DNA of 43,819 bases, from the NCBI GenBank assembly GCA_017416685.1, contig JAFQBN010000022.1, forward strand, positions 1-43,819, given 5' to 3'. Position 1 is the stretch's first letter, and every line of letters begins with the position of its first letter. The stretch comes from Oscillospiraceae bacterium (lineage in GTDB: Bacteria; Bacillota; Clostridia; Oscillospirales; Oscillospiraceae). Below are positions 39,672-43,819 of the stretch, in pieces. Under the pieces are notes generated by a model. That model had not been told where the DNA came from. It did no database searches and saw only the letters and a list, made by a program, of their open reading frames with translations. Position numbers and translations under genes: made by a program.

Positions 39672-40109
39672 ATGAAAAAGTTTTTCAACGAGTTCAAGAC
39701 CTTTGCCATGCGCGGCAACGTGATCGACCTGGCCGTCGGCGTTGTCATCGGCGGTGCCTTCGGTAAGATCACCACCTCTATCGTCAACGACATCATTATG
39801 CCCCTCATCTCCATGCTCACCGGCGGTATCAGCTTCGAGGAGTGGAAGTGGGTACTGAAAGAGGCCGTAGTCAATGCCGAGGGCGTCATCGACCCCGCCA
39901 CCGAGGTAGCCGTCAAGTACGGCAACACCATCGCCATCATCATCGACTTCATCATCATCGCCTTTGCGGTGTTCTGCATGGTCAAGGCCATCAACTCCCT
40001 GCACCGCAAGAAGGAAGAGCCTGCTCCCGAACCCGCCCCCGAGCCTGAGCCTTCCGCCGAGGAGAAGCTGTTGAGTGAGATCCGCGACCTGCTGAAGGAG
40101 AAGAACTGA
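39672..40109 (+). CDS. mscL: large-conductance mechanosensitive channel MscL
   Basis: Homopentameric channel that opens under membrane tension to release solutes during hypo-osmotic shock. The 145-residue protein has the family start KKFFNEFKTFAMRGNVIDLAVGVVIGGAFGKI (parts at about 2-33, membrane helix 1), second membrane helix TIAIIIDFIIIAFAVFCMVKAIN (about 86-108), and the cytoplasmic helix EEKLLSEIRDLLKEK. A proline-glutamate linker (PAPEPAPEPEP) precedes that helix. The ATG follows GAGAGGAG. The next gene overlaps its stop by one base. Confidence 0.96.
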   Translation: MKKFFNEFKTFAMRGNVIDLAVGVVIGGAFGKITTSIVNDIIMPLISMLTGGISFEEWKWVLKEAVVNAEGVIDPATEVAVKYGNTIAIIIDFIIIAFAVFCMVKAINSLHRKKEEPAPEPAPEPEPSAEEKLLSEIRDLLKEKN

Positions 40110-40450
40110 TGCCCGATATCAATTCCCCGGACAACCTGCCCGAAGAGCAGGGGTATGCCCCCGCCTCTCCGGTCAAGCGGGCCTTGGCGTGGATCGGCAT
40201 CGTGTATATGGTCATTTTGGTGGCTCTGACCACCGCCATGTACTTTTCCGGCGGAATTGCCCTGACCGGCATCGCCCCCCTGCTGGCCGTCCCCGGCCTT
40301 GTTGGTCTGGGCATTGTGGGCCTGATCAGCCATCGCACCACCGGTTCCCCCTCCAAACGCGGAGCGTGGATCCTTGCCGCCATCTGCTGGCTGGTGTCCG
40401 TCTGGTTCCTGATCCCGGGCATTGCGGGCCTGCTGGCCAACTTCGCCTGA
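40109..40450 (+). CDS. small membrane protein, function unknown
   Basis: The 113-residue protein has a soluble acidic N-terminus of about 22 residues and three hydrophobic helices (about 26-47, 50-72 and 87-110), with a charged loop SHRTTGSPSKRG between helices 2 and 3. Its ATG overlaps the mscL stop (TGATG), and rsmG follows 18 bases later. No named family is recognised. Translational coupling with mscL is the only clue to its role. Confidence 0.75.
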   Translation: MPDINSPDNLPEEQGYAPASPVKRALAWIGIVYMVILVALTTAMYFSGGIALTGIAPLLAVPGLVGLGIVGLISHRTTGSPSKRGAWILAAICWLVSVWFLIPGIAGLLANFA

Positions 40451-40468
40451 AGTGTGGGAGGTTGACCC

Positions 40469-41182
40469 GTGAAGGATATGATTTCCGCCGGTCTCGACCT
40501 GCTGGGCCTGACCGAACGAATTCCCGCCAATGCCGCCGACACCCTTGCCAACTACGGCAGGCTCCTGCTGGATAAAAATCAGGTCATGAACCTGACCGCC
40601 ATCCGGGACGAGGCCGGCGTTGCCCAACTGCACATGCTGGATTGCGCCGCTCTGGTCGGCCTTGTGGATTTGGAGGGGAAAGCCCTCATCGACGTAGGCT
40701 CCGGCGCCGGATTCCCCGGCATGGTACTGAAATCCCTTGTCCCGTCTTTGCAGGTCACCCTGCTGGACAGCCTCGGAAAGCGGGTCAACTGGCTCAACGA
40801 ACTGGCCGGACAGCTGGGTTTGGAGGGCGTCACTGCCATCCACGCCCGGGCTGAGGAGAAAGCGCTTGAAAAAGGCTTCCGGGACAGCTTCGACTTTGCT
40901 ACCGCCCGGGCCGTGGCCGATCTGCGCCTTCTGTGCGAGCTGTGCCTGCCCTACGTCAAGGTGGGCGGTGCGTTCCTCGCCATGAAAAGCACCGACAGCG
41001 ACGAAGAGCTGGCCGGTGCCGCCCACTGCATCAAGCTTCTGGGCGGTCGGGTGGAGGCCTGCCACGACTACACCATCCCCGGCACCGATGTGACCCACCG
41101 TCTGGTGGTCATCCGCAAGGTGGCCCCCACCCTGAAGGGTTATCCCCGCAAGTGGGCCAAAATCCAAAAAGACCCGCTGTAA
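40469..41182 (+). CDS. rsmG: 16S rRNA (guanine(527)-N7)-methyltransferase
   Basis: SAM-dependent methylation of G527 of 16S rRNA. The GTG at 40469 is used because GGGAGG lies seven bases before it; an ATG three codons on is less well spaced. The 237-residue protein has KNQVMNLTAIRD (about 35-46), SAM motif LIDVGSGAGFPGMVLK (about 73-88), LLDSLGKRVNWLNEL and the FATARAVADLRLLCEL segment. It is usually near the origin beside noc/parA/parB, as here, though serS and mscL intervene. Loss of RsmG gives low-level streptomycin resistance in other bacteria. Confidence 0.96.
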   Translation: MKDMISAGLDLLGLTERIPANAADTLANYGRLLLDKNQVMNLTAIRDEAGVAQLHMLDCAALVGLVDLEGKALIDVGSGAGFPGMVLKSLVPSLQVTLLDSLGKRVNWLNELAGQLGLEGVTAIHARAEEKALEKGFRDSFDFATARAVADLRLLCELCLPYVKVGGAFLAMKSTDSDEELAGAAHCIKLLGGRVEACHDYTIPGTDVTHRLVVIRKVAPTLKGYPRKWAKIQKDPL

Positions 41183-41208
41183 CTCCGGCAAAATTTTCCC
41201 GCAAACTA

Positions 41209-41236
41209 TTGACCCATCATGGTTTTGTGATAAACT
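41209..41236 (+). promoter_or_regulatory. promoter of the MinD-like gene
   Basis: TTGACC (41209-41214), 16-base spacer, TAAACT (41231-41236), about 25 bases before the start codon. Confidence 0.6.
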
Positions 41237-41261
41237 ACTATTGATGTGATTGGAGGCCCCT

Positions 41262-42002
41262 ATGGCTACTGGTACCGCCATCGTCATCGCCTCCGGTAAG
41301 GGAGGCACCGGAAAAACCTCTCTCACCGGCGGAATTGCCGCATGCCTTGCCCGTCTGGGCCGCAAGGTACTGTGCATCGATATGGATATCGGTCTGCGCA
41401 ATCTGGACATCAGCCTTGGCATGACTGACCGGGTGCTGATGGACTTTTCCGACGTGGCGGAGGGCCGCTGCACGCTGGAGCGTGCCGCCGTCTCTCACCC
41501 GGACCTGCCCGGCCTGCACATGCTCACCGCCCCCATCCGCCTGCCCGACAGCGTGGATGAAGCCAGCATTTCCAAACTGCTGGATGAGGCGCGGCAGCAG
41601 TTTGACTACATTCTGCTGGATGCTCCCGCCGGTCTGGATGCCGGTTTTCGGCTGGCCTCCCGCGCTGCCGACCGGGCCATCGTAGTAGCAACCAACGACG
41701 CCTCCTCCCTGCGGGATGCCCAGCGTGCCGTGGGTGAGCTGGGCCACATCAGGCAGGTGCATCTGGTGGTCAATCGGGTACAGCCCAAGTTGCTGCGCCG
41801 CCTGCGCACTACCATCGACGATGCCATGGATGCCGCCGGTCTGCCCCTGTTGGGCGTGGTGCCGGAGGATCCCAAGGTAGTTCTGGCCGCCAACGCGGGT
41901 AAGCCGCTGATTTTGACCGGCCGCCGCGGCGCGGCAAACGCCTGCCTGAACATCGCCAAACGAATTGAGGGCCATCGTGCCCCCATCATGAGAATCCGCT
42001 GA
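41262..42002 (+). CDS. MinD/ParA-superfamily ATPase
   Basis: The ATG at 41262 follows TGGAGG. The 246-residue protein has a deviant Walker A (IASGKGGTGKTSLTGGIA, about 7-24), switch I region LCIDMDIGLRNLDISLGM as in MinD, Walker B-like YILLDAPAGLDAGFRLA (about 112-128) and VVNRVQP. The LRNLD stretch and overall length favour MinD over ParA. The C-terminus (RIEGHRAPIMRIR) is short and basic and is not a clear amphipathic membrane-targeting helix. No minC, minE or flagellar genes are adjacent. It may be an orphan MinD with a role in cell-pole or division placement. mgsA-like gene follows 28 bases later. Confidence 0.85.
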   Translation: MATGTAIVIASGKGGTGKTSLTGGIAACLARLGRKVLCIDMDIGLRNLDISLGMTDRVLMDFSDVAEGRCTLERAAVSHPDLPGLHMLTAPIRLPDSVDEASISKLLDEARQQFDYILLDAPAGLDAGFRLASRAADRAIVVATNDASSLRDAQRAVGELGHIRQVHLVVNRVQPKLLRRLRTTIDDAMDAAGLPLLGVVPEDPKVVLAANAGKPLILTGRRGAANACLNIAKRIEGHRAPIMRIR

Positions 42003-42030
42003 CAGAAAGAAAGGAAAGGGATGATTTCGT

Positions 42031-42447
42031 ATGAACATTGCATTGATGAGCCACGACAATAAGAAAGAGCTGATGATCCAGTTCTGTATTGCCTACTGCG
42101 GTGTTTTGGCCCGCCACACCCTGTGCGCCACCAACAGCACCGGCCGACAGGTCAGCGAAGCCACCGGCCTGCCCATCAACCTGTTCCTTTCCCACGAACA
42201 CGGCGGCATTCAGCAGGTTGGCGCCCGCATCGCCTATAACGAGATCGACATGGTCCTGTTCTTCGACGATCCCGCCAGCAATGATCTGGAGGAAGAGGTC
42301 CGCCACATCTGCCGCCTGTGCGACCAGCACAACGTCCCCTTTGCCTCCAACGTGGCCACCGCCGAGGTTCTCATCCACGGCCTGTCCCGGGGCGATTTGG
42401 ACTGGCGTGACATCGTCAACCCCAAAACCGCGCCTTTTGCGGTGTAA
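42031..42447 (+). CDS. methylglyoxal synthase homologue with altered active site
   Basis: The 138-residue protein aligns end to end with methylglyoxal synthases (MgsA) of Bacillus and E. coli: IALMSHDNKKELM, CATNSTGRQVSEATGL, HGGIQQVGARIA, MVLFFDDP, NVPFASNVATAE. Phosphate-site residues (Lys12, Thr34, Thr37, Ser54) and Asp9 are kept. However, three E. coli catalytic-site positions differ: the general base Asp71 is Ile60 (GGDQQ is GGIQQ), His98 falls at Leu86, and Asp101 is Glu89. Conversion of DHAP to methylglyoxal is therefore doubtful. It may bind a phosphorylated ligand as a sensor, or do different chemistry. It may share the MinD-like gene's transcript. Confidence 0.85.
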   Translation: MNIALMSHDNKKELMIQFCIAYCGVLARHTLCATNSTGRQVSEATGLPINLFLSHEHGGIQQVGARIAYNEIDMVLFFDDPASNDLEEEVRHICRLCDQHNVPFASNVATAEVLIHGLSRGDLDWRDIVNPKTAPFAV

Positions 42448-42461
42448 TTTCCGCCTGAAAC

Positions 42462-42490
42462 TTGACTTTTTGTCCTGTTTAAGATAGGAT
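42462..42490 (+). promoter_or_regulatory. promoter of the hisS T-box transcript
   Basis: TTGACT (42462-42467), 17-base spacer, TAGGAT (42485-42490), followed directly by the T-box leader. Confidence 0.7.
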
Positions 42491-42496
42491 TAGCTG

Positions 42497-42733
42497 TACC
42501 GCGTTGACGGCGCATGAGTACCCGGAACACCCCGCCACAGAGAGAGCTTTCCTGGCTGCGAGAAGCTTGCGCGAAGATCCGGCGAAGACAGCGTTACCAG
42601 CGGCCCCGGAGACGGGGGCGGTCCCCTTCCCGCAACAGAAGGCAAAAGGGGCGCACTGCGCCTGAATTTGGGTGGCACCACGAAGCGATTTCTACGCTCT
42701 CGTCCCAAACCACGGGACGGGAGCGTATTTTTT
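42497..42733 (+). ncRNA. T-box riboswitch upstream of hisS
   Basis: Stem I shows the GAGTA strand (about 42509-42514), AGAGAGAG and GGCTGCGAGA apical elements, and a specifier strand GAAGACA (42584-42590). The T-box sequence tgggtggcaccacgaagc (about 42669-42686) can pair with the uncharged tRNA end. A terminator with 13-bp arms (42694-42726) and TTTTTT follows. Uncharged tRNA binding should allow read-through into hisS. The specifier triplet in the internal loop appears to be GAC, an aspartate codon. Confidence 0.92.
42694..42733 (+). terminator. T-box leader terminator
   Basis: Perfect arms acgctctcgtccc and gggacgggagcgt, a 7-base loop, then ATTTTTT. Alternative pairing with the T-box region forms the antiterminator. 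Confidence 0.9.
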
Positions 42734-42736
42734 ATT

Positions 42737-42763
42737 CGGGGCGTCGAGGACGCCGCCCCCTAC
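42737..42763 (-). repeat. short dispersed GC-rich repeat
   Basis: On the minus strand this reads gtagggggcggcgtcctcga then cgccccg, matching the copy at 9461-9486. It sits between the T-box terminator and the hisS ribosome site. Confidence 0.6.
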
Positions 42764-42803
42764 GCATCCGTTCATATCTCCTATTTCGAAAGGATTTGGT
42801 ACT

Positions 42804-43819
42804 ATGGCTATCGTACAACCCCGCACGCTGTCCGGCTTCATGGAGCTGCTGCCTGCCCGTCAGGCCCAGTTCGACCGCATGGCGGACACCCTGAAAAAAA
42901 CCTACGCCCTGTACGGCTTCACCGGTCTGGATACCCCGCTGATCGAGGCGTCCGAAGTGCTGCTGGCCAAGGGCGGCGGCGAGACGGAAAAGCAGATCTA
43001 CCGCTTTTCCAAGGGCGACACCGACCTGTCCCTGCGCTTTGACCTGACCGTCCCCCTGGCCAAGTACGTCGCTCAAAACTACGGTCAGCTGACCTTCCCC
43101 TTCCGCCGCTTCCAGATCGGCAAGGTCTACCGGGGCGAGCGCGCCCAGCGGGGCCGCTTCCGCGAGTTCTATCAGGCCGACATCGACATCATCGGCGACG
43201 GCAAGCTGGACATCAGCAACGAAGCGGAGATCCCTTCCATCATCTACAAGGCCTTTACCGCCATGGGCCTGAAGCGGTTCCAGATCCGGGTGAATAACCG
43301 CAAGATCCTCAACGGCTTCTACGCCATGCTGGGTCTGACCGAAAAGTCCGGCGACATCATGCGCACCGTGGACAAGCTGGACAAGATCGGCGCCGACAAG
43401 GTCCGCGCCCTGCTGATTGGCGAAGAGATCGGCCTGACCGACGCCCAGGCGGACGAAATTTTGAAGTTCATTGCCATCACCGGCTCCAATGCCGAGGTTT
43501 TGACCGCTTTGGAGGGCTACCGCGGCCGCCACGAGCTGTTCGATCTCGGTCTGGACGAGCTGAACACCGTCACCAAATATTTGTCCGCCTTCGGCGTGCC
43601 TGAGAGCCACTTCGCCGTGGACCTGACCATCGCCCGGGGCCTTGACTACTATACCGGCACCGTGTACGAGACCACCATGCTGGACCACCCGGAGATCGGC
43701 TCCATCTGCTCCGGCGGCCGCTACGACAACCTGGCCGAGTACTACACCGACAAGCAGCTGCCCGGCGTGGGCATCTCCATCGGCCTGACCCGCCTGTTCT
43801 TCGTGCTGGAGGATCAGGG
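42804..43819 (+). CDS. hisS: histidyl-tRNA synthetase (partial, runs off the window)
   Basis: Charges tRNA-His. The ATG at 42804 follows GAAAGGA. The visible 338 residues are the class II catalytic core: RTLSGFMELLPARQAQFDRM, motif 2 FRRFQIGKVYRGERAQRGRFREFYQADIDIIG (parts at about 101-132), the histidine-binding ARGLDYYTGTVYE (about 276-288), and CSGGRYDNL. The C-terminal anticodon-binding domain lies beyond the window. The frame stays open to 43819. It is preceded by a T-box leader. In Firmicutes aspS commonly follows hisS. Confidence 0.96.
   Translation, partial: MAIVQPRTLSGFMELLPARQAQFDRMADTLKKTYALYGFTGLDTPLIEASEVLLAKGGGETEKQIYRFSKGDTDLSLRFDLTVPLAKYVAQNYGQLTFPFRRFQIGKVYRGERAQRGRFREFYQADIDIIGDGKLDISNEAEIPSIIYKAFTAMGLKRFQIRVNNRKILNGFYAMLGLTEKSGDIMRTVDKLDKIGADKVRALLIGEEIGLTDAQADEILKFIAITGSNAEVLTALEGYRGRHELFDLGLDELNTVTKYLSAFGVPESHFAVDLTIARGLDYYTGTVYETTMLDHPEIGSICSGGRYDNLAEYYTDKQLPGVGISIGLTRLFFVLEDQ

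Follow-up and report, generated by a model that had tools for sequence, protein, structure and literature searches.

The window analyzed here, the whole 43,819-nucleotide stretch of contig JAFQBN010000022.1 from an Oscillospiraceae bacterium, carries at positions 42031-42447 of the forward strand a gene whose 138-amino acid product is a methylglyoxal synthase (MGS) homologue without the catalytic base, as judged from the open reading frame and its translation, from matches to models NF003559 and TIGR00160 and to MgsA proteins of the PDB, and from dN/dS values. This MGS-like protein matched the methylglyoxal synthase models over its whole length, with a score over the cut-off of NF003559 (118.1 bits; cut-off, 84), a score under that of the stricter TIGR00160 (114.3 bits; cut-off, 146.9), and 35.9 bits for Pfam MGS. 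All 11 of its solved-structure relatives are named methylglyoxal synthase, and the top one, 6f2c (113.8 bits, residues 1-130), is presumably MgsA of Bacillus subtilis. Upstream, separated by 28 bases (42003-42030), lies a gene for a MinD-type ATPase (41262-42002, forward strand) with an ATG start and an in-frame TTG at 41250; the frame taken from 41250 scored 226.6 bits with TIGR01968 (cut-off, 212.9). The sequence of this ATPase contains a deviant Walker A motif, GKGGTGKT (41295-41318, forward strand), and ends in IMRIR followed by the stop codon (41985-42002, forward strand), and both the sequence and a comparison of tail lengths showed that the amphipathic membrane-targeting helix is absent. 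Two statements of an earlier note on this DNA, that the protein aligns with MgsA over its whole length and that a MinD-like ATPase gene precedes it by 28 bases, were thus confirmed, the former by the model matches, the PDB matches and a MAFFT alignment, and the latter by the TIGR01968 score and the measured gap. Downstream of the MGS-like gene lies hisS (324.6 bits with TIGR00442), truncated where the window stops. The leader between the two genes bears a GGGTGGCACCACG stretch at 42670-42690, which we take to resemble the core motif of a T-box antiterminator, and a search of positions 40000-43819 against Rfam at the gathering threshold gave no match.

The residues of the window protein were mapped by a MAFFT alignment with E. 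coli MgsA (sequence identical to that of PDB 1b93). The catalytic base Asp71, which corresponds to Asp60 of the Clostridioides difficile MGS (base assignment from excerpts of PMC7843640), is replaced by Ile60 (codon at 42208-42210, forward strand). The expected place of His98 and Asp101 is occupied by Leu86-Glu89 (42286-42297, forward strand), Leu86 being aligned to His98 and Glu89 to Asp101 in a loop that is one residue shorter. The exact equivalences in this shortened loop are uncertain, position 98 being a gap in many family rows of a larger alignment; the loop histidine of MgsA is absent, with Leu86 or a gap in its place. The phosphate-binding residues Lys23, Thr45, Thr48 and Gly49 of MgsA are all present, as Lys12, Thr34, Thr37 and Gly38, and His8 (H19), Asp9 (D20), Ser54 (S65), Asp80 (D91) and Asn107 (N119) are likewise retained; His8-Asp9 and Lys12 are encoded at 42052-42066, and the phosphate-binding loop TNSTG (residues 34-38) at 42130-42144, both on the forward strand. 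Further substitutions affect the E. coli positions Gly46 (Asn), Thr47 (Ser) and Gly66 (His). The earlier hand alignment, with Ile60 within GGIQQ, Leu86, Glu89 and a loop shorter by one residue, was therefore reproduced by MAFFT, and the claims that had been built on it also held: the phosphate-binding lysine and threonines remain, most of the phosphate grip being present in the alignment, and the protein is not a standard synthase at the residue level, since Asp71 and His98 are lost and Asp101 is Glu. An HxHGG motif encoded at 42193-42207 lies beside the pocket and may represent a new catalytic or metal site.

A close reference for these losses is the 137-amino acid MGS of C. difficile, an active enzyme of nearly equal length that shares its numbering with the window protein. 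The excerpts of PMC7843640 assign D60 as its base and H8 as the stabilizer of O3, attribute phosphate binding to K12, S54 and the TGTTG motif (residues 34-38), and describe H87, the equivalent of His98, as accessory and not critical. In this common numbering the window protein has H8, K12, T34, T37, G38 and S54, with Ile in place of D60 and TNSTG in place of TGTTG. Compared with the MgsA proteins as a group (E. coli 1b93, 6f2c and C. difficile MGS), the window protein shares whole-length homology and the residues His19, Lys23, Thr45/Thr48 and Gly49, but differs in having Ile for the catalytic Asp, no His98 loop, a changed Asp101, no C-terminal Arg150 and a conserved C-terminal RGDLDWRDIVNP.

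The base position was also compared among relatives. In 101 family rows, which are non-canonical, not dereplicated and include the window's own copy, position 71 is Ser in 54, Cys in 11, Ile in 9, Gly in 8, Asp in 7, Ala in 5 and another residue in the remaining seven, within a constant GGx[QE]Q frame in which G69, G70 and Q73 are invariant; H19, K23, T45, T48 and G49 are invariant as well, and the canonical copies of the family have Asp at the base in 10 of 10 cases. Among 93 distinct family rows the base site ranks 7 of 111 sites in variability. The base position thus varies freely, whereas the pocket around it is constrained. Because Ile is merely one of many residues found at this freely varying position, in the family rows as in 228 distinct min-type rows, HGGIQQ was discarded as a defining motif, and the special HGGIQQ clade that the earlier note had proposed to look for is not supported. 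The 228 distinct min-type rows, drawn from family, order and class, include 156 without Asp71, and these base-less rows retain K23 (152), T45 (151), T48 (152), G49 (149), H19 (138), D20 (147), D91 (149) and Q73 (all 156), with H98 in only 7. Of the 156, 77 retain S65 and 56 retain G66, and the phosphate site has therefore been altered in part.

These data bear on whether the protein could still be a weak but real methylglyoxal synthase in which Asp9, Asp80 or Glu89 takes the proton. The frequent retention of D20 and D91 in the base-less rows, the name given to the protein by the NCBI model NF003559 and the accessory role attributed to the His98 equivalent in the excerpts of PMC7843640 are in agreement with such an activity, and Glu, which occupies the base position in 31 of the 156 base-less rows, might act weakly in its place in those rows. 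However, the base position varies freely (Ser, Cys, Ile, Gly or Ala), and the loop with His98 is gone as well. Mutants of E. coli MgsA in Asp71 and Asp101 are also said to lose activity by orders of magnitude. We therefore consider a residual synthase improbable, and judging from these residues methylglyoxal synthase activity has very probably been lost. As separate observations, there is in the class a second lineage with Glu in place of the base Asp, without His98 and with MinE adjoining MinD (genomes/loci G755/L262, G713/L275, G735/L270, G612/L266 and G574/L261), of which G755, G713 and G574 contain a second MGS match; and L295 and L313 encode highly divergent MGS-like proteins that have lost both His19 and the base, in loci from which MinD is absent.

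The origin of the gene was traced in a tree of 123 dereplicated rows from which the base and loop columns were left out. The min-type proteins form a single group of 108 rows (SH-aLRT 99), separate from the E. coli-like enzymes, with intact copies among its early branches; four members of the group (L204, L294, L311 and L312) score higher with the canonical profile. The intact copies of the class lie in PBP2-MinD-MinE-gap-MGS loci and also in MreC-PBP2-MinD-MGS loci, and in L297 and L303, the two gaps tested, RodA fills the gap upstream of intact MGS (TIGR02210, 388.1 and 435.3 bits; cut-off, 336.7). The MGS-like gene thus descends from an intact mgsA in an mre-min-rodA cluster of Clostridia, and the catalytic base has been lost repeatedly, in many lineages of the order. 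The best tree has 19 base changes; collapsing forks below 80 leaves at least 14, and collapsing those below 95 leaves at least 2. Resolution of the tree is poor, with support below 80 for 68 of 120 inner branches. The idea that catalysis was lost because MinE had been lost was rejected, since degenerate copies stand beside MinD-MinE pairs (L261, L262, L266, L270, L274 and L308).

The spread of the gene and its constraint were then considered together. A profile made from the alignment of 70 family proteins matched in 282 of 295 order genomes, at least 2 of these matches (G331 and G364) being due to a canonical copy only, and in 124 of 196 class genomes; TIGR00160 matched in 286 of 300 same-family genomes. 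Among the titles of the 80 nearest public loci were Oscillospiraceae, Flavonifractor, Pseudoflavonifractor, Oscillibacter, Sporobacter, Papillibacter and uncultured Clostridia, which points to Oscillospirales as the order. Against five relatives the dN/dS of the MGS-like gene was 0.007-0.085, in comparison with 0.053-0.212 for MinD, 0.070-0.288 for RsmG and 0.008-0.157 for SerS; its dN was 0.35-0.39 of the MinD dN for the three more distant relatives, and 41 columns are invariant in 70 family sequences. Because the relatives are constrained and order-wide, the MGS-like gene of the window is not a chance observation. A slow decay, in which a functionless remnant is kept in place by its operon, would accommodate the repeated loss of catalytic residues and the 13 of 295 order genomes without a match; nevertheless, it is largely refuted by the constraint, with the low dN/dS, the invariant columns and the 282 order genomes with a match all against it, and is very improbable.

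The same constraint would also suit a neofunctionalized enzyme that carries out another reaction on a phosphorylated substrate by means of His8 and the new His55/His57 of HxHGG, the MinD neighbor being then a relic of the ancestral cluster. In agreement with this, position 66 is changed from Gly to His in 74 of the 101 family rows and position 68 from Met to His or Gln in all 101, both near the pocket, and His19 is kept in all 101. Nevertheless, His66 is a feature of the family that, in the rows listed from L117 on, was seen only in same-family genomes (L121 and L126-L128), the base position itself varies freely, and no partner enzyme gene was recognized among the neighbors, where seven gene types were searched for. 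We consider a new enzyme, including the different lyase raised in the earlier note, unlikely but conceivable.

The window's own genome was matched twice by Pfam MGS, in the MGS-like gene and in a 1075-amino acid frame of CarB size located elsewhere, which is probably CarB; no canonical mgsA was seen in this search. The earlier note had asked whether genomes with such proteins also hold a canonical mgsA; none was seen in the genome under study, and a copy over the TIGR00160 cut-off was present in 10 of the 300 family genomes, each of which has a second match as well. The MGS domain of carbamoyl phosphate synthetase CarB is an allosteric ligand sensor, and the earlier note had suggested a domain of this type. 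The window protein shares the MGS fold but is a stand-alone protein of 138 amino acids nearest to MgsA; with the CarB-size frame lying elsewhere in the genome and all 11 solved relatives found being methylglyoxal synthases, a CarB-type MGS domain was rejected.

The MinD gene accompanies the MGS-like gene in most loci. Of the 80 nearest loci, 77 carry it, all except L086, L098 and L104. It was also found on the locus of 206 of the 228 distinct min-type rows, in 178 of them no more than 200 bp upstream and in 28 upstream with intervening genes; it was not seen in the other 22, several of which have a flank of about 1.5 kb. The gene order is SerS-MscL-RsmG-MinD-MGS-HisS in the window's lineage and MreC-PBP2-MinD-MGS-HisS-AspS in other lineages, with a Maf-family gene ahead of MreC in L093; HisS was placed in these loci with the L104 protein. 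A search for MinD-MGS fusions found none in 315 loci, the long frames of L316-L319 being overlapping frames.

At the genome level, MinD matches above 125 bits, a threshold chosen after the scores were seen, occurred in 35 of the 38 order genomes that encode the MGS-like protein. Of 27 order and family genomes that lack it, 3 had such a match, in one case at a contig end. Lowering the threshold to 100 bits gave 37 of 38 and 6 of 27 as the figures, and for genomes at least 90% complete at 125 bits they were 32 of 35 and 2 of 9. The 38 genomes leave out G357 and G534, which had been chosen for having no MinD on the locus, the former without MinD and the latter with MinD elsewhere (149.8 bits). 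The co-absence may partly reflect a single deletion or an assembly gap, since the two genes are adjacent. Against a strict partnership, a degenerate copy without any MinD match above 100 bits was present in G357, G580, G625, G592 and the genomes that hold L098 and L086, and a copy with the base and no such match in G645, G578, G716 and G737; in G744 a degenerate copy lies beside PBP2, and MinD and MinE are on a different contig. Moreover, the MinD neighborhood is older than the loss of catalysis, and therefore linkage alone is no proof of a joint function.

The ancestral neighbors MreC, PBP2 and RodA raised a further alternative, namely that the protein regulates the cell-wall elongation machinery and that MinD is one locus member among several. 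MreC-PBP2-MGS without MinD is found in L086, L098, L104, L276, L277, L283 and L313 (gene families checked in L093 and L104) and PBP2-MGS in L229, L291 and L293, and the intact copies of L297 and L303 have RodA directly upstream, all of which would fit such a role. However, in the window's lineage neither PBP2 nor MreC was seen in the 6-kb flanks and MinD was, in 77 of the 80 nearest loci, and MinD is the most persistent upstream neighbor among the gene types searched for. A regulator of elongation that acts apart from MinD is accordingly quite unlikely.

The neighboring MinD itself departs from the classical protein. It is the only close MinD of its genome, the three other matches being 25-31% identical to it. 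The GKGGxGK[TS] motif is found in 229 of 253 MinD frames above 100 bits, and 20 of the remaining 24 have KGGVGK[TS], without the first Gly; the final 4 are cut or unreadable at Walker A, and the Walker A lysines are otherwise retained. The tail past the VP motif has at least 21 residues and an amphipathic look in 25 of 27 MinE-bearing loci; it has at most 8 residues in 123 of 164 MinE-less loci and, in the family, in 85 of 86, and a helix-like tail is retained in some MinE-less lineages outside the order. Helix loss was not tied to base loss, no association being found on independent pairs, of which just 3 were testable. MinE gave no match in the window's own genome, and in none of the 295 order genomes did it exceed the cut-off, under which 3 weak matches lay; it was over the cut-off in 93 of 196 class genomes, and therefore the search is able to detect clostridial MinE. 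Similarly, MinC_C gave no match in the own genome and was over the cut-off in 0 of 295 order genomes (9 weak matches under it), in a search whose positive control comprised only 14 named genomes, 6 of them matching. MinC and MinE thus appear to be absent order-wide, and many order genomes retain MinD. The MinD of the window is probably soluble, because it has no membrane helix despite its deviant Walker A motif and because MinC and MinE were not found.

As in MinCDE, the neighbor is a MinD equivalog (TIGR01968) with a deviant Walker A motif, and the ancestral locus reads minD-minE-rodA-mgsA; unlike MinCDE, the order has no MinC or MinE match over the cut-off in 295 genomes and the MinD of the window is without its membrane-targeting helix. 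The orphan ParA/MinD ATPases without their usual partners that are mentioned in excerpts of PMC10482377 are also MinD/ParA-type ATPases without MinE, but they come from other bacteria and those excerpts mention no MGS-like partner. A precedent for regulatory contact of MgsA is offered by B. subtilis, in which, according to excerpts of PMC12291648, Crh binds and inhibits MgsA, an MGS-fold protein being there in a regulatory contact tied to carbon flux; in contrast, Crh regulates an active enzyme and the MGS-like protein of the window has lost catalytic residues. In an exact-word search of open-access papers, no title among the matches listed linked MinD to MGS, 'mind' and 'mine' being also ordinary words.

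Taken together, we favor the reading that the MGS-like protein has no catalytic role, binds a phosphometabolite and regulates a soluble MinD-type ATPase, to which we assign a probability of about 0.5. The data show descent from an ordinary synthase of the mre-min-rodA cluster, loss of the base and of the His98 loop in many lineages of the order with the fold and most of the pocket and phosphate grip kept, constraint, linkage of the two genes, no MinC or MinE match over the cut-off and a missing MinD helix. According to this proposal, the protein would bind a phosphorylated metabolite such as DHAP, or phosphate itself, and either with or without this ligand it would contact the neighboring MinD-type ATPase and set its ATP-dependent dimer cycle, which would result in a metabolic input into cell division or wall growth. 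Of the inferred steps, the loss of activity is the best supported, and the contact with MinD and the division output are the least supported. A phosphorylated ligand is probably bound, the chances of a physical or regulatory link to MinD seem evenly balanced, and cell division or wall growth can be named as the output only tentatively. The sensor role that the earlier note had raised for the protein is supported as a possibility. A bolder version, which we find doubtful, would be a two-protein switch derived from an order-wide dismantled Min system, in which a soluble MinD, helix-less in the window's lineage, would be gated by a dead synthase that senses a glycolytic phosphometabolite and would relay carbon status to division or wall growth.

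These results have consequences for the annotation of the family and for the study of its biology. NF003559 would label the window protein a methylglyoxal synthase, and therefore microbiome work that counts mgsA genes, such as the counts made in PMC10101062 according to its excerpts, could count genes that probably produce no methylglyoxal as a source of it. The data also pose the problem of MinD function in an order seemingly without MinC and MinE, an apparent absence that deserves separate study irrespective of the role of the MGS-like protein, and they provide in this protein a specific candidate partner of MinD. Finally, the copies found at this one type of locus form a natural gradation, from intact to completely degenerate, and constitute a good system in which to follow the transition from an enzyme to a non-enzyme.
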